Origin: Flavobacteriales bacterium
GTDB lineage: Bacteria; Bacteroidota; Bacteroidia; Flavobacteriales; Flavobacteriaceae
DNA: 60,917 nucleotides
NCBI GenBank assembly: GCA_004213645.1
Contig: SGZF01000006.1
Location: 1-60,917, forward strand
Reading direction: 5' to 3'
The notes beneath the pieces were generated by a model, which saw nothing but the letters and a program-made list of their open reading frames with translations, searched no databases and was not told the origin of the DNA. Both the position numbers and the translations under genes were made by a program. Shown piece after piece: positions 10,871 through 60,917 of this stretch. Position 1 is the stretch's first letter; each line of letters opens with the position of its first letter.

Positions 10871-10882
10871 GAAATTTTTATG

Positions 10883-10890
10883 CAAAAATA
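10883..10890 (-). promoter_or_regulatory. -7 promoter element for gcvP operon
   Basis: On the minus strand this reads TATTTTTG, a match to TAnnTTTG, and ends 12 bases before the gcvP ATG at 10870. No clear TTG is seen at the -33 spacing. The short leader leaves no room for a glycine riboswitch. Confidence 0.6.
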
Positions 10891-10926
10891 TGTAATATTG
10901 AAAATAATAATAATATTGTTGATTAA

Positions 10927-11271: not shown

Positions 11272-11759
11272 GCTTTTTTCTTAAGATCGTTACTACTCTC
11301 AATAACTTTATCTTCAAGGTCTTTTTTGTAAGCTTTGATTTTATCAGAAACTTTTGAATCAAAAGAACCAATAATTTGTGCAGCTAAAATTCCTGCATTT
11401 TTTGACCCATTTAAAGCTACAGTTGCAACTGGAACTCCTCCAGGCATTTGTAATATAGATAAAACTGAATCCCAACCATCAATAGAATTTCTAGATTTAA
11501 TAGGAACGCCAATCACAGGAAGACTAGTAATTGATGCAACCATTCCTGGTAGATGCGCAGCACCTCCCGCACCAGCAATAATTACCTTAATACCATTTGC
11601 TTCTGCATTAGTTGCATATTTAATCATTTTCTTAGGAGTTCTATGAGCTGAAACTATGTCATATTCTGTTTTAATGCCAAAAGATTTTAAAATTTCAATT
11701 GCTTCTTTCATTATATCGAAGTCAGATTTACTTCCCATTATAATTGCTACTTGACTCAT
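11268..11759 (-). CDS. purE: N5-carboxyaminoimidazole ribonucleotide mutase
   Basis: Converts N5-CAIR to CAIR in purine synthesis. The 163 residues match class I PurE: IMGSKSD at the N-terminus for phosphate binding, SAHRTP near 40 with the catalytic His, and AGGAAHLPGM near 70. The start overlaps the purK stop by 4 bases, so translation is probably coupled to purK, the enzyme of the preceding step. Confidence 0.95.
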   Translation of the reverse strand: MSQVAIIMGSKSDFDIMKEAIEILKSFGIKTEYDIVSAHRTPKKMIKYATNAEANGIKVIIAGAGGAAHLPGMVASITSLPVIGVPIKSRNSIDGWDSVLSILQMPGGVPVATVALNGSKNAGILAAQIIGSFDSKVSDKIKAYKKDLEDKVIESSNDLKKKA

Positions 11760-12907: not shown

Positions 12908-12911
12908 TGCG

Positions 12912-12919
12912 CAAAAATA
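12912..12919 (-). promoter_or_regulatory. -7 promoter element for purK-purE
   Basis: The minus strand reads TATTTTTG, then CGCA, then the purK ATG. With the usual few bases between the -7 element and the start of transcription, the message would begin at or just before the start codon. Confidence 0.65.
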
Positions 12920-12961
12920 AGCATTCCTTTAAACTCAGTAAAAAATACTAAACATTTTAAA

Positions 12962-12969
12962 TATCTTTG
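12962..12969 (+). promoter_or_regulatory. -7 promoter element for adk operon
   Basis: TATCTTTG matches TAnnTTTG and ends 5 bases before the adk ATG at 12975. It diverges from the purK promoter about 45 bases away. No -33 TTG is obvious. Confidence 0.6.
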
Positions 12970-12974
12970 TGCAT

Positions 12975-13550
12975 ATGTTTAATATTGTAATTTTTGGAAA
13001 ACCAGGATCAGGTAAAGGAACTCAAGCAAATTTTTTAAAGGAAAAATATGATCTTTATCACATATCTACTGGTGATTTATTTAGAAAAAATATTACGAAT
13101 AAAACCGATCTAGGAATTGAGGCAAAGTCATATCTAGATAAAGGAGATCTTGTTCCTGACTCAGTCACAATCAAAATGTTAGAAAATGAAGTAGTTTCCA
13201 ACAAAGATGTTAACGGTTATATATTTGATGGTTTCCCAAGAACTTTTAACCAAGCTGAATCTCTTGATTCTTTTCTAGACTCTATTAAACTTAAAATTAA
13301 CGCAACGATAGCATTGGATGTTAGTGAAGATGAATTAATTACTAGATTACTAGATCGAGGAAAAACTACAAATAGATCAGATGATCAAGACATAGAAAAA
13401 ATTAGAAATAGGTTTAACGAGTATAACACTAAAACTTCTATTCTTATTAATTTTTATAATAAACAAAATAAGTTTTATTCAGTTAACGGAAAGGGAACAG
13501 TTAATGATATTACCAGAAGACTATTCAACCTTATAGATAGTTTAATTTAA
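12975..13550 (+). CDS. adk: Adenylate kinase
   Basis: Interconverts ATP + AMP and 2 ADP. The P-loop GKPGSGKGTQ begins at residue 7; HISTGDLFR binds AMP; the GFPRT motif and the LLDRGKTTNRSDD segment belong to the LID region. The LID is short and lacks zinc cysteines. The 191 residues match flavobacterial Adk. I chose ATG 12975 rather than the in-frame GTG at 12969, because that GTG lies partly inside the TATCTTTG promoter element. First gene of adk-obg-MazG-like-aroA. Confidence 0.95.
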   Translation: MFNIVIFGKPGSGKGTQANFLKEKYDLYHISTGDLFRKNITNKTDLGIEAKSYLDKGDLVPDSVTIKMLENEVVSNKDVNGYIFDGFPRTFNQAESLDSFLDSIKLKINATIALDVSEDELITRLLDRGKTTNRSDDQDIEKIRNRFNEYNTKTSILINFYNKQNKFYSVNGKGTVNDITRRLFNLIDSLI

Positions 13551-13556
13551 GATCAA

Positions 13557-14564
13557 ATGATAGTTGATAATTTTGTTGATTATGTTAAGCTTTATGTTCG
13601 ATCTGGAAAAGGGGGGAAAGGCTCAACGCATTTAAGAAGAGAAAAATATATTCCCAAAGGTGGTCCTGATGGAGGAGATGGAGGAGATGGAGGAAATATA
13701 ATTTTAAGAGGAAATAGTAATCTTTGGACACTTCAAAATTTTAGATTTAAAAAACACTTTAAAGCTGGTAATGGAGGAGATGGAGGTGGTTCAAGAAAAT
13801 CAGGTGAGGGTGGGGAAGACATTGTAATTAATGTGCCTTTAGGAACTATAGTAAAGAATACTAATACTAATGAGATTATTTTTGAGGTAAATGAAGATAT
13901 GATAGATACATTGCTTGTAAAAGGTGGAAAAGGTGGTTTAGGAAATTTTCATTTTAAGTCTCCTACAAACCAAACTCCTAGATATTCTCAGGGTGGTCTT
14001 CCAGGAGAAGAACTTCAAATTACATTAGAGCTTAAAGTTCTTGCAGATGTCGGTTTAGTTGGATATCCAAATGCTGGAAAGTCTACATTATTATCATCCC
14101 TATCTGATGCAAAGCCAAAAATTGCTGACTATGAGTTTACAACTTTAAAACCAAATCTAGGCATTGTTGCAATGTCTGATTATAGATCATTCGTTATGGC
14201 AGATATACCTGGAATAATTGAGGGAGCTAGTAAAGGACGTGGTCTTGGTCATCATTTTTTAAGGCATATTGAGAGAAATTCTGTTTTATTATATGTGATT
14301 CCAGTAGATACAAAAAATGTTAAAAAAGATTTTAATATTTTAAAGGACGAGTTAATTAAATACAACCCTGAACTTGCAGACAAAGATTTTATGATTGCAT
14401 TTAGTAAATCTGACTTAATGGATAATGAATTACTTGAAGAATTTGAAATTTTGTTAAAAAAAGAGTTTAAATCAATACCTTTTATAATTATTTCTTCAGT
14501 TAGTTCTCATAGAGTTTCTGAGCTTAAAGAAGAATTATGGAAATTACTTAACCAAAAGAATTAA
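13557..14564 (+). CDS. obg: GTPase Obg (CgtA), ribosome assembly
   Basis: Essential GTPase of large-subunit assembly and stress control. Residues 1-160 form the glycine-rich Obg fold ([15 protein letters not shown] and repeated GGDGG patches). The G domain follows with G1 GYPNAGKST near 170, switch region [10 protein letters not shown]3 [10 protein letters not shown] and G4 SKSD. The protein ends soon after the G5 SSVS motif, with no extra C-terminal TGS-like domain, as is usual in Bacteroidota. It starts 6 bases after adk. Confidence 0.96.
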
Positions 14565-14566
14565 AT

Positions 14567-14893
14567 ATGAACTTAAAAAAAGCACAAAAAACTGTAGACG
14601 ATTGGATAAATCAACACGGGGTAAGATATTTTAATGAGTTAACCAATATGGCTATTTTAACTGAGGAAGTCGGTGAAGTTGCAAAAATAATTGCAAGAAA
14701 ATATGGAGAACAGAGTTCAAAGGATGATGATAAAACTGATAATCTTGCGGATGAATTATCTGATGTACTTTTTGTTTTAATATGTTTAGCCAATCAAACA
14801 GGGATCGACCTTGAACAATCTTTTCTTCGAAATCTTGAAAAAAAAACAAACCGAGATATAAATAGACATAAGTCAAATATTAAACTTAAGTAG
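14567..14893 (+). CDS. MazG-like nucleotide pyrophosphohydrolase
   Basis: Small all-alpha NTP pyrophosphohydrolase (108 aa) of the MazG/dUTPase-like superfamily, expected to hydrolyse non-canonical or excess NTPs to NMPs. The metal-binding motifs are visible: LTEEVGEVAK (ExxE) near 27-36 and ELSDVLFVL (ExxD) near 64-72. The single-domain form differs from two-domain MazG of E. coli. It starts 2 bases after obg, and its stop overlaps the aroA start by one base. Confidence 0.82.
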   Translation: MNLKKAQKTVDDWINQHGVRYFNELTNMAILTEEVGEVAKIIARKYGEQSSKDDDKTDNLADELSDVLFVLICLANQTGIDLEQSFLRNLEKKTNRDINRHKSNIKLK

Positions 14894-16116
14894 TGTATCA
14901 AATATCAAGAAAGGGTAAAGACCTAAAAGGTAAAATAAACATAAGTGGTTCTAAAAGTGAGTCAAATAGACTTCTGATTCTAAGAGCTTACACTTCCTAT
15001 TTTAATATTTTAAACATTTCTGATTCCGATGACACAAAGACAGTTATGGATGCCTTAGAATCTAATAATGAGGAAATAAATATTGGACATGCTGGAACTG
15101 CAATGAGGTTTTTGACTTCATATTATTCATCTATTTCAAATTCTAAGAAGATCTTAACAGGTTCTTCCAGAATGAAAAATAGACCAATTTCATTACTAGT
15201 TGAAGCTTTAAATGAATTGGGTTGTGATATTGAATATATTGATAAGATCGGTTATCCTCCCATTAAGATTAATGGTAAATTGATCTCAAATACTACTGTT
15301 AGCTTATCTGCAAATATTAGTTCTCAATATATATCATCTTTGATGATGTTAGGTATTTCTCTTGAAAATGGCTTAAAGATCAAACTATCAACAAAAATTA
15401 CATCATTACCTTATATTTTGATGACTAAAAGGATTATAGAAAGAATAGGAGGGAGTGTTCAAATTAATTCAAATTATATTATTATTCAACAATTAAAATC
15501 AAAAAATATAACTGATCAAAATGTTGAATCTGATTGGAGTTCAGCTTCTTATTTCTTCAGTTTAGCTGCATTATCAAATTATTGTGATATAACTCTCTCA
15601 ACTTTTTTTAAAAAAAGTATACAGGGGGATTCCAAATTAGTAGAGATATACAAAAAACTGGGAGTCAAAACAGTTTTTAAAGAGAATAAAATACATTTAA
15701 AGAAAAAAAAGATTAAACTTCCAGATAAAATTTCTATTAATCTAAAAGATAATCCTGACCTCGCTCAAACTATTGTAATAACTTGTTTAGGTCTTGGCGT
15801 AGACTGTACTTTAAGTGGATTACATACATTAAAGATTAAAGAAACAGATAGATTATTAGCTCTTAAAAAAGAGATTGAAAAATTTGATGTTGATTCAGTT
15901 AAAATAACCGAAGAATCTATTGAGTTAAGAAATAGCTCAAACTTAAAATCAGAGGTTTGTATTGACACATATAATGATCACAGAATGGCTATGTCCTTTG
16001 CTCCTTTATCTATAATTACTCCAATAATAATCAATAACCCTGAAGTTGTCACTAAATCATATAGTAAGTTTTGGAATGATTTAGAATTATTAGGATTTAA
16101 TATTTCTAAAAAATAA
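14893..16116 (+). CDS. aroA: 3-phosphoshikimate 1-carboxyvinyltransferase (EPSP synthase)
   Basis: Sixth step of the shikimate pathway, joining shikimate-3-phosphate and PEP. The N-terminal SGSKSESNR motif binds substrate, with GHAGTAMRF near 60, LTGSSRMKNRP near 90, DNPDLAQT and LKIKETDR near 310, and DHRMAMSFAPL near 358. The start is GTG, overlapping the preceding stop as TAGTG. At 407 residues it is on the short side of the family. Last gene of the adk transcript; a promoter for queA follows. Confidence 0.94.
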   Translation: MYQISRKGKDLKGKINISGSKSESNRLLILRAYTSYFNILNISDSDDTKTVMDALESNNEEINIGHAGTAMRFLTSYYSSISNSKKILTGSSRMKNRPISLLVEALNELGCDIEYIDKIGYPPIKINGKLISNTTVSLSANISSQYISSLMMLGISLENGLKIKLSTKITSLPYILMTKRIIERIGGSVQINSNYIIIQQLKSKNITDQNVESDWSSASYFFSLAALSNYCDITLSTFFKKSIQGDSKLVEIYKKLGVKTVFKENKIHLKKKKIKLPDKISINLKDNPDLAQTIVITCLGLGVDCTLSGLHTLKIKETDRLLALKKEIEKFDVDSVKITEESIELRNSSNLKSEVCIDTYNDHRMAMSFAPLSIITPIIINNPEVVTKSYSKFWNDLELLGFNISKK

Positions 16117-42535: not shown

Positions 42536-44644
42536 TTATTTTCTTTCAAGAAGAACCTTTCTAGAAACTTTTTGTTTTCTGGTTCTTTTATCAATACCTA
42601 GGTATTTTACTTCAATTTGATCACCTATGTTAAGGTATTCAGTAACTTTCTCAACTCTTTCCCAAGCAATTTCTGATACATGAAGAAGAACCTCTTTTCC
42701 AGGAACAAATTCAACTACAGCACCAAAATCAAGAATTTTTACAACAGTTACTTTATAAACCTCATCGATAACGGGTTGAAAAATTATATTTTTTATCCTC
42801 TCAATTGCATTATCAATTTTTTCTTGATCAACTCCTAAAATTTCAACAATACCAACTTCATCTTTTTCATTAATTACAATTGTTGTATCACTCTCTTTTT
42901 GAAGTTCTTGAATCATTTTTCCTCCAGGACCTATAACTGATCCAATAAAATCTTTTGGGATTTCCATATTCACCATCTTTGGCGCATGTGGTTTTACTGT
43001 ATCATTTGCTATTTGAATAGAACTATCAAGTTTTTCAAGTATTTCTAATCTTCCTTTTTTAGCTTGTTGTAATGCTTCTACAAGAATTTCATATTTTAAT
43101 CCCTTTATTTTAATATCCATTTGACATGCTGTAATACCATCTTTGGTTCCTGTTACTTTAAAGTCCATATCTCCAAGATGATCTTCATCGCCTAAGATAT
43201 CTGATAGCACAGCATATTTATCACCTTCACTAATAAGACCCATAGCTATACCTGAAACATTACTTTTGATTTTTATTCCTGCATCCATTAGTGCAAGTGA
43301 TCCAGCACATACTGATGCCATTGAAGATGAACCGTTTGATTCTAATATCTCGGATACAATTCTTACAGTGTAGGGGCAATCTTCTGGCATTACTTTTTCA
43401 AGCGCCCTTTGAGCTAGCATTCCATGCCCAATTTCCCTTCTGGATGTTCCTCTTAGAGGTCTAGCTTCTCCAGTAGAAAAAGGAGGAAAGTTATAATGTA
43501 AATAGAATGTTTCTTCAGACTGGTTAGTCGGCATATCTATCATATTTACTTCTCTGCTTGTTCCAAGAGTAACGGATGCAAGAGATTGTGTTTCACCTCT
43601 AGTAAAAACTGCAGAGCCATGAGTAGAAGGAAGATAGCCTACTTCAGTCCATATATCTCTAATATCTTCAGTTTTTCTTCCATCTAGCCTAGTACCATCA
43701 TTTAAAACTAGGTCTCTAATTGCTTTTTTCTGTGCCTTATTAAAGTAGTTAGTGATTAAATCTTTCTTCTCTTCTAATATTTCATCATCATATGATTCAA
43801 TAAGTTCTTCTTTTAATAACCCAAAAGATTCGCTTCTTTCGTTTTTAGAAAGACCTTTCTTAGCTATATCGTATGATTTTTGATATATTTTTTCTGAAAT
43901 TTCAGCTTCCAGTTCAGCATCTTCTTCTGCACGTTCATAATCTCTTTTATCAGAGCTAATACCAACATCTTTAATAAGATTTTTTTGAGCCTCTATATGT
44001 CTTTTTATTTCATCATGAGCAAATTTAATAGCATCTGCCATTTCTTCCTCGGATATTTCATTAAACTCTCCCTCAACCATTACAACAGAATCAATGGTAG
44101 CACCGACCATAATATCAATATCACTTTCTGTTAATTGACTTCTAGATGGATTAATAATAAAATCACCCTCAATTCTAGCAACTCTTACCTCAGAAATTGG
44201 ACCGTCAAAGGGTATATCTGATAGAGAAATAGCTGCAGAGGCTGCTAGTCCAACTAATGCGTCAGGCATTACATTTTCATCGCTTGACATTAGTTGAATC
44301 ATTACTTGAGTTTCTGAATGATAATCTTTTGGAAAAAGAGGACGTAAAACTCGATCAACTATTCTCATTGTTAGGATTTCTTCACTACTTGGTCTAGCTT
44401 CTCTTTTAAAGAAACCACCAGGAAATCTTCCAGCGGAAGCAAATTTCTCTCTGTAATCAACAGTTAACGGAAGAAAGTCTAGTGATGAAGCTCCATAACT
44501 TGATACAACAGTCGATAAGAGCATACAATTTCCCATTTTTACAACTACAGAACCATGGGCTTGTTTAGCAAGTTTACCTGTTTCGATAGTAATTTCTCTA
44601 CCATCAGTTAAAGTTATAGTTTGTGAAAAAGGTTTTGGAATCAT
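42536..44644 (-). CDS. pnp: Polyribonucleotide nucleotidyltransferase
   Basis: Phosphorolytic 3'-5' exoribonuclease and RNA polymerase of RNA turnover. Two RNase PH domains are present ([23 protein letters not shown] block near 65-90; TRGETQSL and [12 protein letters not shown] in the second). They are followed by a KH domain with [13 protein letters not shown] near 566-578 and an S1 domain to the C-terminus, which ends LLERK without the usual charged tail. 702 residues. It follows rpsO by 60 bases, the classic rpsO-pnp operon. Confidence 0.96.
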
Positions 44645-49544: not shown

Positions 49545-50288
49545 TTAATAATTTCTTTGTCTAGTTATTTCAAAAGCCACTGCAGAGAAAGCAACTGAAA
49601 CATTTAAAGAGTCAATCTTTTCACTAATTGGGATCTTAAGTGTTTCATTTGATAAATTTATTATGCTCTTTGAGATGCCTTTATCCTCTGAACCTAATAT
49701 GATTGCTAAAGATTTTGTAAAGTCAAATTCATAAATCGGTTTATTAGCTTTTTCAGACATACCTACTATTTTAATGTCTAACGAATTTAGATGCATTATT
49801 GCATCCTTTAAATTACTAACTCTTGCTATTGGTATTTTAAAAACACCTCCAGAAGAGGCTTTAACAACCTCAGAATTTATTGGTGCTGAATTATTTTGAG
49901 CGATAACTATTCCACTGATGTTTGCAGCAACTGAGGTTCTTATTATTGCGCCAAAATTTCTTGTGTCTGTAATTCCATCTAACAAAAGATAGGTTTGAGA
50001 TATATCTTTCTGATATGTTGATTCTAGTAATTCCTCAATTGACAGAAGTGATACAGGTGAGAGTATTGCTACTGCACCTTGATGATTTTTATCTGAAAAC
50101 TTTCTAAACTTTTCTTTAGGTACATATGAAAATTTAATACTTTTTCTTTCTAATAACTTCAATAATGAGCTAAACAAACTGCTTTGATTAGAATTAGATT
50201 TAAGTAAATAAACTTTACTTATATCCTTTGATGATTCTATTGCTTCAATTATGCTTCGAATTCCGTAAATCTCAACTTGTTCTTTCAT
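49545..50288 (-). CDS. rlmB: TrmH-family 23S rRNA 2'-O-methyltransferase (RlmB-like)
   Basis: SPOUT-fold methyltransferase, expected to methylate G2251 of 23S rRNA. The N-terminal substrate-binding domain is followed by motif 1 LDGITDTRNFGAIIRTS near 103-119, motif 2 ILGSEDKGIS near 197-206, and motif 3 IPISEKIDSLNVSVAFSAVAFE near 220-240. 247 residues. Which rRNA or tRNA site it modifies cannot be proved from the sequence. It is upstream of the TamL-like gene by 32 bases, a common neighbour pair in flavobacteria. Confidence 0.9.
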   Translation of the reverse strand: MKEQVEIYGIRSIIEAIESSKDISKVYLLKSNSNQSSLFSSLLKLLERKSIKFSYVPKEKFRKFSDKNHQGAVAILSPVSLLSIEELLESTYQKDISQTYLLLDGITDTRNFGAIIRTSVAANISGIVIAQNNSAPINSEVVKASSGGVFKIPIARVSNLKDAIMHLNSLDIKIVGMSEKANKPIYEFDFTKSLAIILGSEDKGISKSIINLSNETLKIPISEKIDSLNVSVAFSAVAFEITRQRNY

Positions 50289-50347: not shown

Positions 50348-51211
50348 TTAGAAACAGATATTCAAATCTTTATTCGTCTCAGAAGGACTTGTTCCATCTG
50401 AAAGAGCTGTTTGAGCATTATTACCATTAACATCAACAAATTCTAGTTGATAAGTTACCTCACTATCCCATGCACCTCCTTGGAAGGAAATGTTTAGTGT
50501 TTGAGTACCATCAAGCGTAAATGATGTACTTGCTGATGCTCCACTACTGAAGCCAAATACATTATCTACTCCATCAATTGTATAAGTAACTGTTGCACCA
50601 TTCCAACCATCACCCCAGCTATCCTGTCCATTTAGTGTGTAAGATCCAGCTGGAGGAGTTCCACCTGCAGGTACTTTACAGCCAATTACTACAGCATATC
50701 TATATGGAGAATTCCAATAAAATTGTGTCACCGAACCGGTAACATTGTTTCTTGAAAATGTTCTACCATCAGTTAGGGTCATAACAAATCTAAAAGTTAC
50801 AACGTCATTTCCAGAGAAACTCGAAATTCCCATTGTTGACAACGCTTGATTAAGGGTAACAGAAACATCAAACCTAGGAAGTCCAAATTCACCATCGTAC
50901 ATGTCGGACAATGCCCAAGATTGATGAAGTGATTCTGATCCTCCGTTCATAGATAATAAAAGATCTACTTTTGAAACTAAATCAATAGTTTCCGCATGAG
51001 GCTCTAATGTAGCTGTCCAAATTGATGACTCTGGAGTTGATGCTTGATATTCACCTACTTGAGTAATCATTCTCAATATAGTGCCATATTCAAAATTATT
51101 AAACATGTAATCAATCATCATTTCCTCTCCCATGTATTCATCACGAAAGTCAGTTTTAGCACATGATGAAACTAAAATTATTAAACTAAGATATATATAT
51201 ATTTTTTTCAT
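50348..51211 (-). CDS. SusCD-associated lipoprotein with SWGDGWNGA-type C-terminal domain
   Basis: Not a family I can name. Signal LSLIILVSSC gives a lipidated Cys at about 17. Residues 100-180 form a domain shared with the lipoprotein at 56376-57257: FDVSVTLNQALSTMGIS, VTFRFVMTLTDGRTFSRNNVTG and YAVVIGC. The C-terminal part (about 190-287) is a beta-rich domain starting SYTLNGQDSWGDGWNGATV; this kind of motif recurs in secreted Bacteroidota proteins. It lies 11 bases after a susD gene and takes the place of SusE/SusF, so it is probably a surface-exposed ligand-binding partner. Substrate unknown. Confidence 0.7.
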   Translation of the reverse strand: MKKIYIYLSLIILVSSCAKTDFRDEYMGEEMMIDYMFNNFEYGTILRMITQVGEYQASTPESSIWTATLEPHAETIDLVSKVDLLLSMNGGSESLHQSWALSDMYDGEFGLPRFDVSVTLNQALSTMGISSFSGNDVVTFRFVMTLTDGRTFSRNNVTGSVTQFYWNSPYRYAVVIGCKVPAGGTPPAGSYTLNGQDSWGDGWNGATVTYTIDGVDNVFGFSSGASASTSFTLDGTQTLNISFQGGAWDSEVTYQLEFVDVNGNNAQTALSDGTSPSETNKDLNICF

Positions 51212-51222
51212 AGTGTTTATTT

Positions 51223-52821
51223 TTAGTCGACCGAAGGGCCATTAGTATTCCAAAATACTCTTTGTGCTAAATCAGTTTTCTGATTAACATTTGAGTTTCT
51301 ACCAGCATGATTACTTGGATAAAACATAGATAAAGGAAATTGTCCAGGGTTCAGCTCAATAGTTGGCTGAAGATTCTTAGGATATCCTGTTCTTCTATAC
51401 AAGTTATATGCATCTATTCCATTCCCAACTTGAGTTATCATAAACTCTTCTGCCCACATTTCTAGCTTACCATCTAAAGAGGCAGCTGTCCATTCAGAGG
51501 CAAAGGCAGCAATGTATTCGTCAATATCTGCTTGAGATATATCTGGAGCACCTGTAATATCATCTACTTTATTCATAAATGATTCAATTCCAGCTAGTGT
51601 TCCAGCAGTAGGATCACCACCAGTATTTACAGCAACTTCAGCATCGAAGAAGTTCATCCATGATGATAAAATTATAGGTGTAATTCCAGCACCACCGGAT
51701 CCATCATTAAGGTACTGTGGAACAAATTCTCCACTATCGTATGATCCACCAGATGGGTAAATACCAGAAAGAGCTCTTCGAGATTGATCTGGGTTTATAC
51801 CACTATCATCTCCGTGATCTCGTCCCCAATATCCTTCAGGTAATCCGCAATATAATCCATATGCAATTCTGTGAGGCTCAATGAAAAAGCCTGGAACAGC
51901 ACATTGAAGTAAAACTTCATCTGAAGGTGCATCGATTCCTGGTGTATCACCTTGTTGTCTATAAATAAGGTAGTTTATTCTAGGATCTCTAACTCCACCT
52001 CTTCCGACCATTAACCTATTCATAAGCCAATTTGATTGGAAATCTGAGGCACCATTGTCCGTATAATTTGATCTGTAAATAGGAGATCTAGTGTCAGGAT
52101 TGGAAACATTCGTTCCCCATTGGAACTGAAAGTCGTCTGCACTTGAAGTTATATAGTTGCTTATTGAATTATATGATGAGTAATCACCCATATTTAAATA
52201 AGCTTTTTTCTTAATACTGTTAGCGGCTCTTATCCATTTTTGGGCATCACCTCCGTAATACATGTCGTATTGAGGTCCAGAACCACCAGCGTTAAAGTTA
52301 GCAATTGCAGAATCTAATAAGCCTAAAGCAGCTTGATAGACAGCTTGACCTCCATCTGATGATGGATTTAAGTTTTCTGATCCTTGCAATGCTTCAGTGT
52401 AAGGGACATCTCCAAAATAATCTACAAGACTAATATAAATATATGCCTGAAAAACTTCGCCCATACCAACGTAATATGAAAGGGTAGCTTCTTCAGCAAG
52501 AATAGTCATAAGTCTTATGTCTTCCATTATTCCTTGATAAGCGTTAGACCATACACCATCCCATGCAATAGGGGTGTAAGCGTTATCATAATCACGGAAA
52601 AAGTCGTGAAGTTGTCTTGTTAATCTTAATCCAGGACTACCCAATTCATCTACAAAATATGCGAAATCTTCTTGGATTGCATTAATAAATAAATCAGCAC
52701 TTGCCTGGTCTGGTCCTAAAGCATTAGGATTTGCAGTTAAGTCTAGTTCAGTAGTCTCACATGATGTAAAAACTAAAACACCTATTAGAGATAAAATTGA
52801 AAGTTTTGTAAAATTTTTCAT
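51223..52821 (-). CDS. SusD/RagB-family outer-membrane lipoprotein
   Basis: Lid-like nutrient-binding partner of SusC. Signal LSLIGVLVFTSC with lipidated Cys at about 20, followed by ETTELDL, the usual SusD opening. TPR-like helices are visible (LVDYFGDVPYTEAL near 135; GGDAQKWIRAANSIKKKAYL near 188). Further on, GYWGRDHGDDSGINPDQ near 330 and the SGGSYDSGEF region match the sister SusD at 57271. It is close to the SusD-like_2 type rather than classical starch SusD. 532 residues. Between susC (19 bases) and the lipoprotein gene (11 bases). Confidence 0.9.
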   Translation of the reverse strand: MKNFTKLSILSLIGVLVFTSCETTELDLTANPNALGPDQASADLFINAIQEDFAYFVDELGSPGLRLTRQLHDFFRDYDNAYTPIAWDGVWSNAYQGIMEDIRLMTILAEEATLSYYVGMGEVFQAYIYISLVDYFGDVPYTEALQGSENLNPSSDGGQAVYQAALGLLDSAIANFNAGGSGPQYDMYYGGDAQKWIRAANSIKKKAYLNMGDYSSYNSISNYITSSADDFQFQWGTNVSNPDTRSPIYRSNYTDNGASDFQSNWLMNRLMVGRGGVRDPRINYLIYRQQGDTPGIDAPSDEVLLQCAVPGFFIEPHRIAYGLYCGLPEGYWGRDHGDDSGINPDQSRRALSGIYPSGGSYDSGEFVPQYLNDGSGGAGITPIILSSWMNFFDAEVAVNTGGDPTAGTLAGIESFMNKVDDITGAPDISQADIDEYIAAFASEWTAASLDGKLEMWAEEFMITQVGNGIDAYNLYRRTGYPKNLQPTIELNPGQFPLSMFYPSNHAGRNSNVNQKTDLAQRVFWNTNGPSVD

Positions 52822-52840
52822 AATTTTTTAAATTTTATTA

Positions 52841-55800
52841 TTAAAACGTAAATTTTAAACTTACACCATATCTCCTTGCACTTACTCCATTGAAATATTC
52901 AAATCCAGATCCATTTCCTACACCGAGTCCGGCAATGTTTGGATCAAAATTACTTGCTTCAGGCATATTGTATGCATCATACCACAAATTAAAACCTTGT
53001 GCTGAGATTGATGCCATTCCAAATGGTGTTCTTTCCAACCATTCTTTAGGTATATCATATGTTAATGATAATTCACTTAATCTTAGAACACTTGCATCCC
53101 ATGTTTCAAGCTCTGAAGCATAAAATATTGTGCTAAAAGTAAAAGTAGAGGCACCAACCATTTTATTATTTGGAGAAGAATCAGATAATACTCCAGGTAA
53201 TAAAAATGTTAGCTCTCTATTAAAGTTAGGTCCCGCTGTATCAGTAGTTAAACCTCTCGAAAGCATTGTAGAGTTAAATGCAGAGTACATGTCACCTCCG
53301 ATAGTTGCATTAAATAAGAAATTTAACGAAAAATTACCATAAGATATTGTATTGCTAATGTTTGCAATAAAGTCTGGGTTTGAATCCCCAATTAAAGCAT
53401 ATGGATTATTCTTGTAATCAGTATCATTATTTGTAGCATATGTTCCATTACCTTCAACAATTGGAGCACCCTGACTATCTCTAGCCACACTGGTTCCAAT
53501 CATAGATGTAAGTGGAAGGCCAGCAATTGCTGCATTTCCTAGATTAGAAAATCCTGCATAAATAATTTGATCTGTATCATCACCTAAATCTTCAACTATT
53601 GATTGTGAAGACATGTAGTTAAATGTAGTATTCCAATTAAGCTTTTCACCTCTTAGCCAATCAGCAGAAAGATCAATTTCCCAACCTTTTGTGCTTATTT
53701 CACCAATATTTGTGCTTGTTGATGAATATCCAGTTGCTGGATCTAAAGGTCTTGATATAATCAGATCAGTTGTATTTCTATCATAATATGAAACTTCAGC
53801 TGATAATCTGTTATCAAAGAGGTTTGCTTCTATACCAAATTCAAGCTCAGCTAGTAATTCAGGTTTTAAACCTGTATTACCTAATTGTGAACCAGAACTG
53901 TTAGTAATAACATTTGTACCGCCAACTCTAAAGTCTTGAACATCTAAGTTTAATGTAGATGCAATAGGATATCCAGTAGGGAAAGTTGCAGATGTTCCAT
54001 AACTTGCTCTTACTTTAAGGAAATCTATTGGAAGCTCACCAAAATCAAATAAAGAAGTAGGAACTATTGCAATACTAGCAGATGGATAAGTAATTGATCT
54101 AAAATCTTCATAAAGATTCGATACCCAGTCAGTTCTTGTAGCAAGAGTTATGAAAAGGTAATCGTCATAATCAAATGAAGCTTGTCCAAATAAACCAAGT
54201 ATGTTTCTTTTGGAATAGTATTCTATTTCTTCTTGAGAATTAAAGTTATAATGTCTAAATATCCCAAATACATTTTGACCGGTACTTCTAACACCGTTTC
54301 TATCATATTCTACTGAATTTGATGTAGCACCAATATTAAATGTAGCACCCCACAAATCATCGAGTTCATAATCACCATTTATTGATATTTGATGATTAAA
54401 TATAGTGTTAGTATTGTTCCATTTTTCATAAACTCCAGTTCTATCTTCAGTAGTACCTGTTTGTCCACCTTTGTTAGACTGACTTACGTTGTCTTCTGAG
54501 TATACATCATAACCGTATCTATATTGAATATTTAAATTATCATTAAAATCATATTGAATACTAGTTCCACCATATGTTCTTTGTGTGTTTTGTCTATCTT
54601 CAGAATTATTCAAAGTCCATAAAGGATGCTGAATAGCATTACTAGGATAGTAATAAATTGAAGATTTAGTAATTGGATTTTCGTATGGTAATTCAGTAAT
54701 ACTTAATTGACGTGGAGTAAAGAAAACCACATCATAAAGTGAGTTAGCTCCAGCAGTTCCACCATATGCAGATGCAATTGGTGGTGACTTAAATCTAGTA
54801 TTAGAATAATTTAATGTACCATTAACAGTAAGCCTATTTGAAAGCGACATTCTACCACCAAAACTAAGAGTATTTCTTCTTAAGTTGTTATTAGGCGTAA
54901 ATCCTTCATCATCCAAATTTCCATAGTTTACATTGTATGAAATTTTACCGTCGTCACTTTGCCCTCTAAAGTTAACATTTGTATTTAAAATACTTCCTGT
55001 TCTAAACAACTCTTCTACTGAATCTCTAGGAGCCCATTCATATAGGGAATCCATCGAAAGACCAATTAAAGGAAGTAAATCCTTTGGAAGTGCATTATCA
55101 CTTATACTATTTACATAAGGGTGAATAACATATCCTGGTTGACCAGATAGTTCACCATTCAGCGCAATTTGTCTTCCCCATCCAGCAGGTCCTTCTTTAT
55201 CAAAGCTTGGACCCCAGTTTGAAAAGAACCAACCAAAACTTTGGTCAAATCCACCACCATATTGATTTTGATAGTCTGGCTTCATTGCAAGTTCGCTACT
55301 AAAATAAGATGTATTAACTGTTACTTCATTTTTTTGAGCATTTAAGCCAGCAGCAGTTGTACCAGATTTAGTTGTAATTAATATTACACCATTTCTTCCT
55401 TGTGAACCATAAAGAGTTGCAGCAGCAAGTCCTTTAAGTACGTTTACACTTTCTATATTATTAGGGTCTAAATCTAAGAATCTTGAGGAACCATTATTAC
55501 CAGAGGTAAAACCACCCATAGCGTTGGTATCACTTGCAAAAGGGACACCATCCACAACAAATAGCGGTTGATTACTTGAACTAAAGGTACTCAAACCTCT
55601 AATTATAACATTTGTTCCAGATCCAGATAGACCACCTTGATTAGTAACCTGAACACCAGAGGCTTTACCAGATAATATACGTGCTACATCACCGGTAGAT
55701 CTGCTTTCAATTTGACTATTGTCAACTTCAGAAACAGCATACCCAAGTGCACGTTTTTCTCTTGTAATACCTAAACTAGTAACGATTACCTCTTCAAGTT

Positions 55801-56089
55801 GAGTTCCGAGAGAAAGTGATATATTAATTACGTCTGACGAACCTACTGTAATACTAGCGGTTTGATAACCAACGAAGCTAAATTCCAGCTGTTGACCTTC
55901 TGATGCATTAATAGAAAAGTTTCCATCGAAATCAGTTGTAACACCAGTCATCGTTCCCTGAACTAGGACAGTTGCACCCGGAAGGGGTATACCATCACTG
56001 TCAGAAACAACACCAGTTAAAGTCTTCTGCGAATATGCAAGCTGCATAGAAACTAAGAAAACTAAGGTTAATCTGAAAAAGCTTTTCAT
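52841..56089 (-). CDS. SusC/RagA-family TonB-linked outer-membrane transporter
   Basis: TonB-dependent active importer of 1082 residues. Signal peptide about 1-20 (LVFLVSMQLAYSQ), then a carboxypeptidase-regulatory-like domain (TLTGVVSDSDGIPLPGATV, DFDGNFSI) to about 95. The TonB-box-like EEVIVTSLGI follows, then the plug (ALGYAVSEVDNSQIES, GVQVTNQGGLSGSGTNVIIRGLSTF) and a 22-strand barrel ending YGVSLKFTF. The substrate is unknown; neither this nor the next operon includes a glycosidase, lyase or protease in the window. First gene of its operon, preceded by an AT-rich upstream region of about 230 bases. Confidence 0.93.
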   Translation of the reverse strand: MKSFFRLTLVFLVSMQLAYSQKTLTGVVSDSDGIPLPGATVLVQGTMTGVTTDFDGNFSINASEGQQLEFSFVGYQTASITVGSSDVINISLSLGTQLEEVIVTSLGITREKRALGYAVSEVDNSQIESRSTGDVARILSGKASGVQVTNQGGLSGSGTNVIIRGLSTFSSSNQPLFVVDGVPFASDTNAMGGFTSGNNGSSRFLDLDPNNIESVNVLKGLAAATLYGSQGRNGVILITTKSGTTAAGLNAQKNEVTVNTSYFSSELAMKPDYQNQYGGGFDQSFGWFFSNWGPSFDKEGPAGWGRQIALNGELSGQPGYVIHPYVNSISDNALPKDLLPLIGLSMDSLYEWAPRDSVEELFRTGSILNTNVNFRGQSDDGKISYNVNYGNLDDEGFTPNNNLRRNTLSFGGRMSLSNRLTVNGTLNYSNTRFKSPPIASAYGGTAGANSLYDVVFFTPRQLSITELPYENPITKSSIYYYPSNAIQHPLWTLNNSEDRQNTQRTYGGTSIQYDFNDNLNIQYRYGYDVYSEDNVSQSNKGGQTGTTEDRTGVYEKWNNTNTIFNHQISINGDYELDDLWGATFNIGATSNSVEYDRNGVRSTGQNVFGIFRHYNFNSQEEIEYYSKRNILGLFGQASFDYDDYLFITLATRTDWVSNLYEDFRSITYPSASIAIVPTSLFDFGELPIDFLKVRASYGTSATFPTGYPIASTLNLDVQDFRVGGTNVITNSSGSQLGNTGLKPELLAELEFGIEANLFDNRLSAEVSYYDRNTTDLIISRPLDPATGYSSTSTNIGEISTKGWEIDLSADWLRGEKLNWNTTFNYMSSQSIVEDLGDDTDQIIYAGFSNLGNAAIAGLPLTSMIGTSVARDSQGAPIVEGNGTYATNNDTDYKNNPYALIGDSNPDFIANISNTISYGNFSLNFLFNATIGGDMYSAFNSTMLSRGLTTDTAGPNFNRELTFLLPGVLSDSSPNNKMVGASTFTFSTIFYASELETWDASVLRLSELSLTYDIPKEWLERTPFGMASISAQGFNLWYDAYNMPEASNFDPNIAGLGVGNGSGFEYFNGVSARRYGVSLKFTF

Positions 56090-56136
56090 TTTTTATTTAT
56101 TTATTTTTTACTAATTTAATTTTAATCGAACTTTAA

Positions 56137-56176
56137 AGTTAATGAAAAATTAACTCTAATTAACTTTATATTAACT
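56137..56176. promoter_or_regulatory. Repeated TTAACT boxes upstream of susC
   Basis: TTAACT occurs at 56150, 56160 and 56171 (spacing 10 and 11), and the first copy forms a dyad with AGTTAAT at 56137-56143 (AGTTAAT-5-ATTAACT). Helical-turn spacing suggests a protein-binding site controlling the susC operon. No TAnnTTTG element is found in the 56090-56317 gap, so the promoter may be of another class. In AT-rich DNA such repeats can arise by chance. Confidence 0.35.
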
Positions 56177-56317
56177 TTTCTCGTTTTGATAAAATATTGA
56201 TTGTAAGGTGACTATATCTTATTAAATAAAACAACTGACTTGCTATATTCATATAAATCAGCTTGTTTAATTGCATATTTAGCAATCAGATAATTTAAGA
56301 TTATGGTATTTGTATAC

Positions 56318-56353
56318 AAAAAAAAAGGAGGTTTAAAAATTAAACCTCCTTTT
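56318..56353 (-). terminator. Intrinsic terminator of susCD operon 1
   Basis: Stem GGAGGTTTAA (56327-56336) with TTAAACCTCC (56340-56349), extended by AAAA/TTTT, loop AAA, followed on the minus strand by nine U (56318-56326). Nearly the same hairpin as at 50293-50324. Confidence 0.85.
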
Positions 56354-56357
56354 AAGC

Positions 56358-56381
56358 AATTAATTAATTAATTAATTAATT
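56358..56381. repeat. AATT microsatellite across a stop codon
   Basis: Six uninterrupted AATT units. The stop codon of the lipoprotein gene (56376-56378) is inside the repeat, and the terminator begins a few bases further on. Confidence 0.9.
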
Positions 56382-57257
56382 TTTAGTTAGTGTTATAGAA
56401 GCATCAGCTCCAGAACCATAACATCCTGCATCTACACATGTTTTTAATGCAAATGACAATTGAGATGTAGCACAACTAAAGAAGTTTTTACCTGTTAATG
56501 ACCTAGCTGGGTAATATTGATCAGCGTATGGGCCAAAAGTCGATTGTAAAACAACTGATTCAGCTTTAGATACAGCTCCTGTAGCAGTATTAACTGTTAC
56601 TACAAAATCTAGACCTGGACCCCAAATGTCACTAAATGTTACCACACCATCTACTGCTGTTGCATTAGTAGTTCCAACACTAGCAGCATAAATATCAGTT
56701 GGGTCTCCCCAGTAGTATGTATATTCAACAGACCAAGTAGTACCATCTACAGCAGAATCTACCCAATCACATCCGAAGGCAACATCCCATTGGTATGCAC
56801 CAATTAATGCTTCACCTCTTGCATCTCCATTAAGATCATTATGAGTAAATACTCTACCATCATCAGTAGTTATTATAGCTCTAAATTCAACTAGATCACC
56901 AGGAGTTACATCACTAGATGATATTCCCATAGCACCTAAAGCTTCTGCAGCAGAAATCTCAAGTCTACTAGGAAATGAACTTGCTGAAAATACAGTAGCA
57001 GCACTAGATTGAGTGTTCGTAGCTGCAAAATATATATTAGCAGTTAACTCATAATTAGCAACGTTTAATGTTGCGTCATTTAGTTCACCTGAATATATAG
57101 AGCCTGAAATATTAGCTAGATCAAATACAGCTGCCCCATCAGGAGTAATCGTTACTAATGCACCAGAAGGAGGTATTGCTAATATCTTATCTTCATCCAT
57201 ACAAGAATTAAGAGTTAATAGTGCAATTCCAACAAATAAAAATTTTAAATTTTTCAT
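56376..57257 (-). CDS. SusCD-associated lipoprotein, unknown family
   Basis: Not a family I can name. Signal LFVGIALLTLNSC gives a lipidated Cys at about 19, followed by MDEDK, an acidic stretch of the kind that directs Bacteroidota lipoproteins to the cell surface. The central module near 100-170 (LEISAAEALGAMGIS, VEFRAIITTDDGRVFTHNDLNG, WDVAFGC) is shared with the lipoprotein at 50348. The C-terminal part (about 165-293) is different: Trp/Tyr-rich, with YYWGDPTDIYAASVG and a Cys-containing tail (ALKTCVDAGCYGSGAD). It lies 13 bases after a susD gene and is followed by a terminator. Probably a surface ligand-binding subunit; substrate unknown. Confidence 0.7.
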   Translation of the reverse strand: MKNLKFLFVGIALLTLNSCMDEDKILAIPPSGALVTITPDGAAVFDLANISGSIYSGELNDATLNVANYELTANIYFAATNTQSSAATVFSASSFPSRLEISAAEALGAMGISSSDVTPGDLVEFRAIITTDDGRVFTHNDLNGDARGEALIGAYQWDVAFGCDWVDSAVDGTTWSVEYTYYWGDPTDIYAASVGTTNATAVDGVVTFSDIWGPGLDFVVTVNTATGAVSKAESVVLQSTFGPYADQYYPARSLTGKNFFSCATSQLSFALKTCVDAGCYGSGADASITLTKN

Positions 57258-57270
57258 AGTTATTTAAATT

Positions 57271-58992
57271 TTAGTTATCCCAGAAAACTTTCACTTCGTG
57301 AGTAGCTTTTTGAGTTAATTGGTTATTATTATCAACTTCTGTTCTAGGATAGTAGAATGAAGTAATCATATCATTATTAGAAGACTTAAGTAAAGGTTGA
57401 AGTCCAGATGGCTTATCTGTTCTTCTGAAGGTATTATACGCTTCTACACCATTACCAAAAAGTGCTAATAAATATTCCTGTACAAGAAGACTCATCTTAT
57501 CTGATGAAGTGTTCCATAAAGACGAAGATCCTGATCCAGCCACATGATCTATGTAAGCATCAATATTAGCTTGTAGATCAGTTGTGAAGTCTGCTTCACT
57601 TGCTGTAGCTCCAGATCTAAATTCAACAGCAGCTGCATTACCCATTTCTGCGGCAAAACCAGTTACTTTTGAAAAAGATTCTGCAAGCCCAGAAGCTAAG
57701 AACTGTCTAGCAGTCTCAGTATTTCCGTTTGCAAGATTCCATTCAGCTATCATAAAGTGAGTGTAAGATGATAAAAGAATAGGCTGTATACCTGCTCCTT
57801 TAAGTCCCATTTGATTTCCAGCAACAGATGTAGTTTGACCATCGTCAAAAGCACCTCCAATTGGATATAGTCCAAATGCAGTTCTTAAACCTCCATCTGG
57901 TGGAATACCATCGTTATCTCCGTGATCTCTTCCCCAATAACCATTGCTTGTACTTTGAGCAGGAGTTATATCGTTATATCCAATATAACAGAAAATTTCA
58001 CTTAGAGAATAATGACCTGGTCTTCTCTCGTTACCACAAGGAATTTCATTATCATCATTATCAGTTACATCATCATCCTGTCTGTAGAAGTAATAATTAG
58101 CCCTTACATCAGTCACACTTTTTTGTGAAACCATTTCTGCCATGTATGCATTTGACATATAGTCTGCAACATCAGCAGCAAGTTCGTAATTACTTACAAA
58201 TTTTGGATGTCTACTATCTGGATTAGCATTCAAAGTTCCATATTTGAATTGGAAGTCTGAAGAACTTGATGCTATTAACTGAGATGGGTTAGAAACAAGA
58301 GAATTTATTGCACCTGCATCGCTACCATCAGCAGCATTTCTTCTTTGCAATCTTAGTTTTAACTCTAAAGTATTTGCAAGTTGAGTCCATTTATCTGTAT
58401 CTCCACGGTAAAATAAATCATTAGATGGTGATTGAGATGGAACAAAGAAGTGATCTTGTGCCTGCTGAATTAAAGCAAGTGCACTGTCATAAACAGCAGC
58501 ACCTGAGTCTAAACCAGGATTAAGATTTTCAACACCAATTGCAGCCTCAGTATAAGGAACATCACCAAGATAGTCAACTAAAGTCATCATTGCATATGCT
58601 TTGATAATTTTAGCAATACCGATGTGAGTTTCCCAACCTTTTTCTTCTGCTCTAGGAACCATATTGTCATAATCAGTAAATATGTTCGCATATGCAGTAT
58701 TCCAAGGACCACTCATTTGAGTAGTAGTATATGCATTTTCATAAAAAGGACCATATAAATGAGTCATTCTTGTTAATTGCATACCTTCATCAGTTACACC
58801 ATTAAAGAATGATGCCATATTTAGTTGCATAGCATTAAGGTAGAAGTCGATGTCAGAACTTTGTGGAGTTAAGGCATTAGGACTTTCTAAAATTTCTAGC
58901 TCTAAAGTTTCACAAGAGTTTAATGTAAACAATATAGAAACTACTGCGATTGAACGATAAATGTTATTTTTTAAAGTATTAAATGTTTTCAT
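57271..58992 (-). CDS. SusD/RagB-family outer-membrane lipoprotein
   Basis: SusC partner of 573 residues. A signal of about 27 residues ends in the lipobox LNSC, followed by ETLELEILESPNALTPQ. It shares with the neighbouring SusD at 51223: LVDYLGDVPYTEA near 147, GDTDKWTQLANTLELKLRL near 205, GYWGRDHGDNDGIPPDGG near 352, and LLSSYTHFMIAEW near 400. The two proteins are clearly related but diverged, so the operons look like an old duplication. It starts 11 bases after the partial susC gene. Confidence 0.9.
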   Translation of the reverse strand: MKTFNTLKNNIYRSIAVVSILFTLNSCETLELEILESPNALTPQSSDIDFYLNAMQLNMASFFNGVTDEGMQLTRMTHLYGPFYENAYTTTQMSGPWNTAYANIFTDYDNMVPRAEEKGWETHIGIAKIIKAYAMMTLVDYLGDVPYTEAAIGVENLNPGLDSGAAVYDSALALIQQAQDHFFVPSQSPSNDLFYRGDTDKWTQLANTLELKLRLQRRNAADGSDAGAINSLVSNPSQLIASSSSDFQFKYGTLNANPDSRHPKFVSNYELAADVADYMSNAYMAEMVSQKSVTDVRANYYFYRQDDDVTDNDDNEIPCGNERRPGHYSLSEIFCYIGYNDITPAQSTSNGYWGRDHGDNDGIPPDGGLRTAFGLYPIGGAFDDGQTTSVAGNQMGLKGAGIQPILLSSYTHFMIAEWNLANGNTETARQFLASGLAESFSKVTGFAAEMGNAAAVEFRSGATASEADFTTDLQANIDAYIDHVAGSGSSSLWNTSSDKMSLLVQEYLLALFGNGVEAYNTFRRTDKPSGLQPLLKSSNNDMITSFYYPRTEVDNNNQLTQKATHEVKVFWDN

Positions 58993-59003
58993 GTTGTATT
59001 ATA

Positions 59004-60917
59004 TTAAAACGTTGCTTTTAAAGTTAAACCTACACGTCTAGATGATGGACCTGTAATAAAAGATAGACCCATTGCATTACCAACACCAGTACTTAAAGAG
59101 TTTGTATCAAAGTTTACAACATCTGGAATATTAACTGCATCATAGAATAAGTTAATACCAGTTAGTGTTGCACTTACTGATCCAAATGGTGAATTACCAA
59201 GTAAGCTTTTAGGGAAATCATATGATAAATTTACCTCGCTTAATCTAATTGTAGTACCGTCAAATATTTGCAATTCTCCTGGACCAAATGAAAATATATC
59301 AAATCCATAGTTAATTGATGTTATTTGAGTTGTGTTTACTTGACCTGTTGATTTACTTACACCATCAAGTACATACAGACCTTCTCTGTTTGTTCCTGGG
59401 TTAAGTACACCACGACCAACTAAGGTTGCAGCATCTTGTGAAAATAAATCACCTCCATGACGATATTGCCATGTAAATCCAAGGGAAAGACCCTTGTATG
59501 ATAAAGAATTTGTAAGAGAAGAAGTCCAATCTGGATTAGGATCTCCAACTAATTCTGGTTCAACAGTTTCTAAATAGAAACCGTCATCATCGATTAAGAA
59601 TTCTCCAGCATCGTTAGTTTGTCTAACAGCAGCTTTCATCATACCTAAAGGATAACCAACAATTGCATAGTTTTGAGGTCTTCCACTACTTACAACCGGA
59701 GTATAAGTAAATTCAGTAACACCCTCACCTAAACTTTCAATTAAGTTTTCTTCAGCTGTAAAATTACCTGAAATATTCCATCTTAAATCTTCTGTAGAAA
59801 CTACATTAGCACTCCAATCAATCTCTACACCTTTAACGTTTAATTTACCAGCGTTAACAGTTGTACTAGTATATCCAGTTGAACCTGGAAGAGATCTAGT
59901 TGTAATTAAATTTGTAGTAGACTTATCATATACTGATGCATTGAAGTTTAAGAAGTTGAATAATCTAGTATCAACACCTACCTCTAATTCAGAAATTAAT
60001 TCTGGCTCAAGAGCCTGGTTTCCAAGAGTGTTAGATGTAGTATTAGATTGAACTACTCCAGATCCCTGATCAAATGCTTTTGCATTTAATGATAGTAAAG
60101 ATCTAGTTCTGTATGGATTAGCAAATCCTGCAGACTGTCCATATCCAACTCTTACTTTTGCATAATTTAAAACATCACTCTGAAGTTCTGGTAAAGCATC
60201 AGTAGCAATAAAAGACACACTACCACCAGGGTAGAATAAAGTATTGTTTTCAGCTTCCATTGTTGAACTCCAATCCTGACGACCAGTTACATTTAAGTAT
60301 AAATAGTCTTTATAATTAAAACTTAAATCACCAAATAGACCATATATATTTTGTTCAGAATCATAACTTGAACCTGACTGAGAAACAAAGTTAAAGTGTT
60401 TTAGAACACCAAAAACTAATTGATTTTCACTGGTTGTTGTTCTTTCAGAATATACTGCTCTGTTTGCAGCACCACCAATAAGACCATTTACAGACCAGTT
60501 ATCATTTATATCTCCACTGTAGGATAATCTAAAGTTATGGTTTTGAATAGTATTAGTATTGTCACCAGTAACATATATACCAGTTGAGTTTCCATCAACA
60601 CCACCCTTATTCTGAGCATGTTGTTGGAACAATGCAGTATTATCTAATCCATATACATAACTTAATGAAATGTTATCAGTTAAATTGTAAGAAACATTGA
60701 AGTTTCCATATGTACGATGAATAGCTTCTGTATCAAAAGCATTTTCAGCAGTCCATCTTGGATTTTGGATATCATTACCAGATCTATAGTATATAGATCT
60801 ACCATCTGAAGTTATATAAGGTAATCCCATTAAGTCAACACTTCTAGGAGTATACATAACATCTCCAAAGATTGATGATGTATAACTACTAACAGATCCA
60901 CTACCAAGTGAAGCTGC
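59004..60917 (-). CDS. SusC/RagA-family TonB-linked outer-membrane transporter (C-terminal part, cut by window edge)
   Basis: The reading frame is open to the last base of the window, so the N-terminus (signal, regulatory-like domain, plug) lies outside; about 637 residues of barrel are visible. It follows the same plan as the SusC at 52841: SSIFGDVMYTPRSVDL near the beginning, the IYGLFGDLSFNYKDYLYLNVTGRQDWSS block, the YAKVRVGYGQSAGF block, and a C-terminal strand ending VGLTLKATF. First visible gene of susCD operon 1; substrate unknown. Confidence 0.92.
   Translation of the reverse strand, partial: AASLGSGSVSSYTSSIFGDVMYTPRSVDLMGLPYITSDGRSIYYRSGNDIQNPRWTAENAFDTEAIHRTYGNFNVSYNLTDNISLSYVYGLDNTALFQQHAQNKGGVDGNSTGIYVTGDNTNTIQNHNFRLSYSGDINDNWSVNGLIGGAANRAVYSERTTTSENQLVFGVLKHFNFVSQSGSSYDSEQNIYGLFGDLSFNYKDYLYLNVTGRQDWSSTMEAENNTLFYPGGSVSFIATDALPELQSDVLNYAKVRVGYGQSAGFANPYRTRSLLSLNAKAFDQGSGVVQSNTTSNTLGNQALEPELISELEVGVDTRLFNFLNFNASVYDKSTTNLITTRSLPGSTGYTSTTVNAGKLNVKGVEIDWSANVVSTEDLRWNISGNFTAEENLIESLGEGVTEFTYTPVVSSGRPQNYAIVGYPLGMMKAAVRQTNDAGEFLIDDDGFYLETVEPELVGDPNPDWTSSLTNSLSYKGLSLGFTWQYRHGGDLFSQDAATLVGRGVLNPGTNREGLYVLDGVSKSTGQVNTTQITSINYGFDIFSFGPGELQIFDGTTIRLSEVNLSYDFPKSLLGNSPFGSVSATLTGINLFYDAVNIPDVVNFDTNSLSTGVGNAMGLSFITGPSSRRVGLTLKATF

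Follow-up and report, generated by a model that had tools for sequence, protein, structure and literature searches.

A stretch of 60,917 nucleotides from a Flavobacteriales bacterium with a small genome, of the Flavobacteriaceae (GenBank assembly GCA_004213645.1, contig SGZF01000006.1), referred to here as the window, carries two susCD operons in tandem on the minus strand. In both operons the gene order is susC, susD and a third lipoprotein gene. The subject of this report are the two lipoproteins, lipo1 and lipo2, whose genes start 11 and 13 bases, respectively, behind a SusD-like_2 gene (PF12771), each preceded by a SusC gene. A first-pass annotation, made from the sequence without database searches, had proposed both reading frames, and both are present on the minus strand at these positions (Table 1). 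It had viewed the proteins as a scaffold which docks to SusCD and carries exchangeable heads. The following comparisons demonstrate that the N-terminal bases of lipo1 and lipo2 share a common descent, that heads are exchanged on such bases, that the genes are linked to susCD in operons, and that the base tracks SusD more than the head does.

Table 1. Coordinates of the two operons and of the adjoining gene in the window
Feature	Position	Strand	Remarks
lipo1 (lipoprotein 1)	50348..51211	-	287 aa; signal peptide 1-16, lipid-anchor Cys17; lipobox read from sequence
lipo1 shared core (base)	50678..51163	-	residues 17-178; Ig-like by AlphaFold2
lipo1 head, type A (D-x-[YWF]-GDGW)	50351..50677	-	residues 179-287
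susD partner of lipo1	51223..52821	-	PF12771 SusD-like_2, E 1e-33; in core-associated SusD branch
susC partner of lipo1	52841..56089	-	TIGR04056, E 1.9e-161
lipo2 (lipoprotein 2)	56376..57257	-	293 aa; lipid-anchor Cys19; lipobox read from sequence
lipo2 shared core (base)	56769..57203	-	residues 19-163; Ig-like by AlphaFold2
lipo2 head, type L2 (Cys-rich end)	56379..56768	-	residues 164-293
susD partner of lipo2	57271..58992	-	PF12771, E 3.6e-32; in core-associated SusD branch
susC partner of lipo2	59004..60917	-	E 3.6e-71; 5' part missing at window end
rlmB-like SpoU rRNA methyltransferase	49545..50288	-	adjoins lipo1; one landmark of conserved interval

A common base and exchanged heads

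All motifs named at first pass were found in lipo1 and lipo2, i.e., LNQALSTMGIS and AAEALGAMGIS, TFR and EFR, TDGRTF and DDGRVF, and GC. BLASTP of the motif regions against each other yields an E of 5e-9 with 35% identity over 68 columns. When the lipo2 core as a single sequence is compared by hhalign with a profile of 35 head-A cores, the probability is 98.9 (E 2.4e-17) across all 145 residues; the best of 60 shuffled copies of the lipo2 core reached 2.7. A chance likeness of the two cores is ruled out by these shuffles. The homology spans the distance from the lipid-anchor Cys to the conserved GC, 145 residues in lipo2 and 162 in lipo1. Thus, a shared module exists as proposed, yet it is not limited to about 80 residues: the N-terminal 145-160 residues or so are of common descent. 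A whole-length profile comparison (E 1.9e-51) was discarded as a test of the core; its second alignment includes several head-A rows. Between the C-terminal parts no homology is detectable: with the lipo2 head aligned to a profile built from head-A heads, hhalign gives a probability of 0.4, which is nothing.

For each lipoprotein alone AlphaFold2 predicts an N-terminal immunoglobulin (Ig)-like domain and a C-terminal beta part, with a mean predicted local distance difference test score (pLDDT) of 84.7 for lipo1 and 76.3 for lipo2. By block the cores mostly score 79-97, with lower values of 71 and 52 at lipo1 residues 151-170 and of 62 at lipo2 residues 141-150; the lipo2 head is modelled less surely (38-89). 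The structural neighbours of both modelled cores in the PDB are Ig- or fibronectin type III-like; their best Z scores of 7.7 (92 residues) and 8.8 (112 residues) count as weak on the tool's own scale. Factor XIII, residues ~514-628, is on both lists. As modelled, the Ig-like fold is a common one and shows no function. These searches used whole models and the lists were filled by the Ig-like core, so they barely cover the heads.

Eighty-five distinct members of the lipoprotein family were sorted by BLASTP clusters of their heads: A (53), E (10), B (9), L2 (4) and C (3). Four others are singletons and two have almost no tail. These at least five head kinds are sequence families, not folds, and a remote kinship is possible between A and B (hhalign probability 69), C and L121 (80), and L2 and L121 (71). 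In head A the residues Gly189, Asp197, Gly200, Asp201, Gly202, Trp203, Glu251 and Cys286 (lipo1 numbering) are invariant in 53 of 53 sequences. The L2 head was found in a single genome, the window's own, out of 296 of the order. A search with the whole of lipo2 within the genus brought up relatives at 63-77% identity in 3 of 25 genomes besides the window's own, and close relatives of the L2 head were found only within this genus.

Two observations concern unusual arrangements. Among the matches listed, head A occurs without a core in six open reading frames of 808-2964 aa, matching from query residue 185 on; judged from these sequences the DxYGDGW head domain, which recurs in very long frames, seems to be mobile in its own right. 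Further, a 442-aa frame (L027 in genome G096, 727-2055 of the reverse strand) contains two tandem cores before one head A, and frames of similar length are among the matches listed for G026 and G396.

In a tree of 82 cores the head labels require 13 changes against a minimum of 5. This tree leaves out L010 (a fragment), L027 (the double core) and L120; like the SusD tree below it is a quick reconstruction, and the support marks of both deserve less trust. Individual pairs illustrate the exchange. The cores of L044 (head A) and L049 (head C) are 62% identical and their heads 17% in a global alignment; in the tandem genes L020u (head E) and L020 (head A) of G108 the respective values are 68% and 27%. 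Both head values are background because a global alignment of the lipo1 and lipo2 heads, which are unrelated, also reaches 29%. Six tandem candidates, taken from those among the matches listed, were fetched. In five of them two core lipoproteins with different heads stand back to back behind one SusCD, always with head E first; the second head is A in four cases and B in one. Two genes separate the core lipoproteins of the sixth candidate. Thus, heads get exchanged while the core stays, as had been surmised from lipo1 and lipo2. L176 combines head A (E 4.4e-14) with another base, and a common head (56% identity, 112 columns) is found in L167 and L171 on bases which are 25% alike. L171 (G011) is a divergent core lipoprotein and a possible bridge between base families.

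Such an exchange can be explained in more than one way. The main rival to the importer reading set out below holds that the heads are variable surface decoys, replaced since phages, predators or antibodies recognise them, with base and SusCD being kept for transport. Heads which change on related cores, two different heads behind one SusCD, and heads which match no known binding family would all fit. Yet the strict head-A motif in 53 of 53 sequences suggests function more than free variation, and every one of the five back-to-back tandems starts with head E. We consider decoys unlikely, though of all alternatives they deserve the most attention.

Lipoprotein export signals in this phylum are described as largely acidic stretches at +2 to +6, counted from the Cys (PMC5080379). 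The members have on average 2.27 acidic residues at these positions versus 0.65 expected (84 of the 85 members; one is without a usable Cys), and lipo2 has three. This is suggestive of surface export of the members, as far as sequence composition can tell.

Family identity and distribution

The lipoprotein family is widespread. Searches with a core profile hit 159 of 397 Flavobacteriaceae genomes and 24 of 296 genomes drawn from the phylum; the hits in the second set extend to further families of the class and to one family from a different class. In a set of 199 genomes of the Flavobacteriaceae, with the window's own genome counted, lipo1 has matches in 69, part of them head-only, and lipo2 in 37.

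The family is without a name in Pfam or NCBIfam. At E<=10 the only Pfam match of lipo1 and lipo2 is LPAM_1 (E 0.1), and a search of NCBIfam gave no match above chance for either. When 41 members were scanned singly against Pfam, scattered weak matches resulted, the best at E 0.0011 (Big_7), none of them convincing. Core and full-length profiles have no sequence match to PDB chains below E 0.1.

Are lipo1 and lipo2 nevertheless diverged ordinary SusE or SusF proteins (PF14292 or PF16411)? They share with these the position directly behind susD in a susCD operon and a similar modular plan, with a predicted Ig-like domain at the N-terminus followed by beta structure. However, the scan of the 41 members gave no match to SusE or SusF models at E<=1. 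A SusE profile compared with the core yields probabilities of 0.7-1.0, similar to column-shuffled controls (top 0.9 of 30), and both positive controls give 99.9; this comparison used 24 of 25 SusE loci, as L124 came out empty. Of 149 Flavobacteriaceae genomes 71 contain PF14292, but it was not found in the window's genome, which is 78% complete. Membership of lipo1 and lipo2 in PF14292 was rejected on the basis of hmmscan, genome search and the profile comparison with its positive controls; no PF14292 domain is detectable in either. Neither protein falls inside a SusE or SusF family, and the earlier reluctance to assign them to a named family was justified. We regard a diverged SusE or SusF as highly improbable.

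The base and its SusD partner

Looking for the module beside other susCD genes is rewarding: SusD is directly upstream in 79 of the 85 members. The six exceptions are the cut loci L010 and L102, the second tandem gene L020, and the E-head genes L048, L072 and L085.

In a tree of 75 SusDs, 24 of the 25 core-associated SusDs, including both from the window, are on one branch with a support of 100; without L171 the core label takes one change. Behind these core-branch SusDs are lipoproteins with heads A, B, C, E or L2, besides one which at 195 aa is too short for any. SusDs which go with a PF16403-type base form a single branch of their own (6 of 6, support 100; the Pfam match was made for one of the six loci). 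Six regions (L148, L151, L154, L158, L159 and L163) possess a core-type pair and one or more other SusCD pairs, and there the core is behind the core-branch SusD.

The same relation is evident within one head type. Distances among 49 of the 53 head-A members (L010, L020, L027 and L102 were left out) correlate with a rho of 0.645 for core and SusD, 0.327 for head and SusD, and 0.224 for core and head. The difference between the first two is 0.318, with a subsampling range of 0.18-0.46. Even when only one half of the core is used, a stretch shorter than the head, the rho against SusD is 0.60 or 0.63. The base, more than the head, tracks SusD.

Alternatively, the lipoproteins might merely be co-transcribed with SusCD and act alone, e.g., as adhesins or envelope-stabilising proteins. 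The three E-head members named above would agree with this because they lie beside pnp without a SusD upstream (the pnp match was computed for the genome of L048 only and read by eye for L072 and L085), as would the six long frames in which head A lacks a core. Against it stand the 79 of 85 members directly behind SusD, the 24 of 25 SusDs on one branch, and a report that SusE of Flavobacterium johnsoniae co-purifies with SusC (PMC12611786). An independent role appears improbable to us. L287 (G118), like L072 and L085, shows a head-E core lipoprotein directly behind a pnp-like gene and without a SusD upstream; in the window pnp is at 42536-44644, 5.7 kb away from lipo1.

Chromosomal setting and interpretation

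At the window end, the lipo2-side susC was listed as 59004-60857 and its frame is open up to base 60917, where the window cuts it. No surface glycanase was found among six window neighbours scanned and, with the few neighbours scanned in other regions included, neither a glycanase nor a peptidase.

Of 20 regions around core members rpsL is present in 11, rlmB in 12, both in 8 and neither in 5. An rpsL-anchored search of 40 genomes, which were picked by hand, mostly without a core match, and are not a random draw, had a match in 39. In 35 of these 39 rpsL regions in Flavobacteriaceae a divergent SusC is at most two genes from rpsL; L180, L205 and L204 (3.6 kb available) have no SusC, and the L174 region ends after 2 kb. 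For 32 of these 35, rlmB is reached within the listed stretch. Usually the genes run rpsL, a gene of ~565 aa, susC, susD, zero to two further genes, rlmB, in many cases a gene of ~245 aa on the other strand, and one of ~425 aa (RarA-like in L156). The ~565-aa gene is in 29 of the 39 regions, and a gene resembling it in L161 matches POTRA. In the window's genome rpsL is on another contig with no susC in 13 kb upstream, and lipo1 abuts rlmB. In other genomes of the genus either type of unit takes this place: a lipo2-type unit adjoins rlmB in G685, a lipo1-type unit in G187, and in G358 rlmB has a piece of an L2-type gene on one side and a head-A unit on the other. Fourteen Flavobacterium intervals were fetched, the genus being assigned via contig matches. 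Three have a PF16403-type lipoprotein, nine have no gene between susD and rlmB, one ends before rlmB and one has a core.

Additional lipoprotein genes were seen in several regions. In L182, L183, L189, L193 and L194 the PF16403-type lipoprotein of the interval has behind it a member of a second family of small lipoproteins (165-177 aa). In L150 a lipoprotein of ~1,100 aa with FG-GAP/ASPIC-UnbV matches (10377-13730) and an arylsulfotransferase-like lipoprotein (14620-15948) are behind the core lipoprotein, and several other regions have genes of similar length in the same place.

Possibly, then, Flavobacteriaceae keep a chromosomal slot between the rpsL side and rlmB for a dominant outer-membrane importer, in which whole SusCDE units are replaced; the heads of core-type units would be exchanged and in places doubled up, with E always ahead of A or B. 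This would amount to one conserved pump with interchangeable receptors, with core and PF16403-type bases each going with one SusCD clade and heads crossing between bases. We put this forward tentatively and expect it rather to need revision; our confidence was lowered a little because the third base group, described below, does not form one SusD branch.

A comparison with known systems is instructive. The SUS complex of F. johnsoniae consists of Fjoh_0403 (SusC), Fjoh_0404 (SusD) and Fjoh_0405 (SusE); it is named among the two most abundant outer-membrane components and its function is given as unknown (PMC12611786). In the same report the co-purification was with tagged SusC, and a tagged copy of SusE was open to proteinase K. 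Going by its tag, Fjoh_0402 precedes susC; it has been described as a homologue of TamA (PMC12045153). As in the window operons, a third lipoprotein, with a consecutive tag, is behind SusC and SusD. Because the tag order Fjoh_0402-0405 matches the order of the interval, the F. johnsoniae complex probably lies in the rpsL-rlmB interval, to go by the published locus tags; the window operons differ in that they lie at rlmB, not at rpsL. A direct link to Fjoh_0405 was not found in one scan of 74 named loci, F. johnsoniae not among them, with one motif of another base type.

The glycan-binding lipoprotein of the levan utilisome contacts SusC; its lipidated N-terminal and central domains are Ig-like and its C-terminal binding domain extends away from the transporter (PMC7618045). 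This protein, Bt1761, resembles lipo1 and lipo2, as these are modelled, in the lipidated Ig-like N-terminal domain and the distinct C-terminal domain. It differs in having two Ig-like domains versus one predicted here, and no sequence relation was found. The solved SusC nearest to the window's susC is BT_2264 (phmmer E 4.6e-89). The uncharacterised Bacteroides SusCD pair to which it belongs we take to be BT2261-2264. The BT_2263/BT_2264 SusCD structure (PDB 5fq6) contains bound lipoproteins; in contrast, the core family has no sequence match to PDB chains at the threshold given above. No paper naming the motif GDGWNG or joining SusC, SusD and rlmB was found in open-licence PubMed Central, a weak absence given that scope.

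With somewhat better than even confidence we propose that lipo1 and lipo2 are SusE-like third subunits of two tandem SusCD importers, with a base matched to SusCD and exchangeable outward heads. In such a complex both lipoproteins would be exposed at the surface, the lipid anchor probably in the outer leaflet. The N-terminal Ig-like base would be matched to its own SusC and SusD, on which it most likely rests. The exchangeable head would be the C-terminal beta domain, pointing outward and most likely capturing or screening substrate for the SusCD below. Docking to SusCD, part of the first-pass annotation, gains indirect support only: the core tracks the SusD clade, and SusE of F. johnsoniae co-purifies with SusC.

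Several observations weigh against this proposal. No carbohydrate- or peptide-binding family matched the heads. Shuffled head labels on the core tree take a mean of 30 changes, compared with the 13 seen, i.e., the labels are strongly clustered; heads are mostly inherited together with the core and only sometimes exchanged. At +2 to +6 lipo1 has one acidic residue only. The core can exist away from SusCD, as follows from the pnp-linked head-E members. The SusD of L171 (a weak core match, E 5.9e-7) is outside the core branch, and in a third, looser base group (7 rows, assembled by eye and phmmer) the SusDs do not form one branch and require 3 changes. What F. johnsoniae contributes is evidence from gene position rather than from sequence homology, and just one of the 14 Flavobacterium intervals has a core. 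Further, operon co-inheritance alone could bring core and SusD trees into agreement, though head and core share it. Because co-inheritance should hit head and base alike, the contrast between their correlations with SusD argues for a base matched to SusCD and a head under a looser or changing constraint.

What are the implications? No function is known for the SusCDE complex which is the most abundant in a model flavobacterium. A base which follows SusCD and carries swapped heads shows where specificity likely sits, and natural pairs with the same base and a different head allow direct tests of substrate recognition. Our data suggest that third subunits of SusCD systems have been missed by family models since base and head evolve separately.

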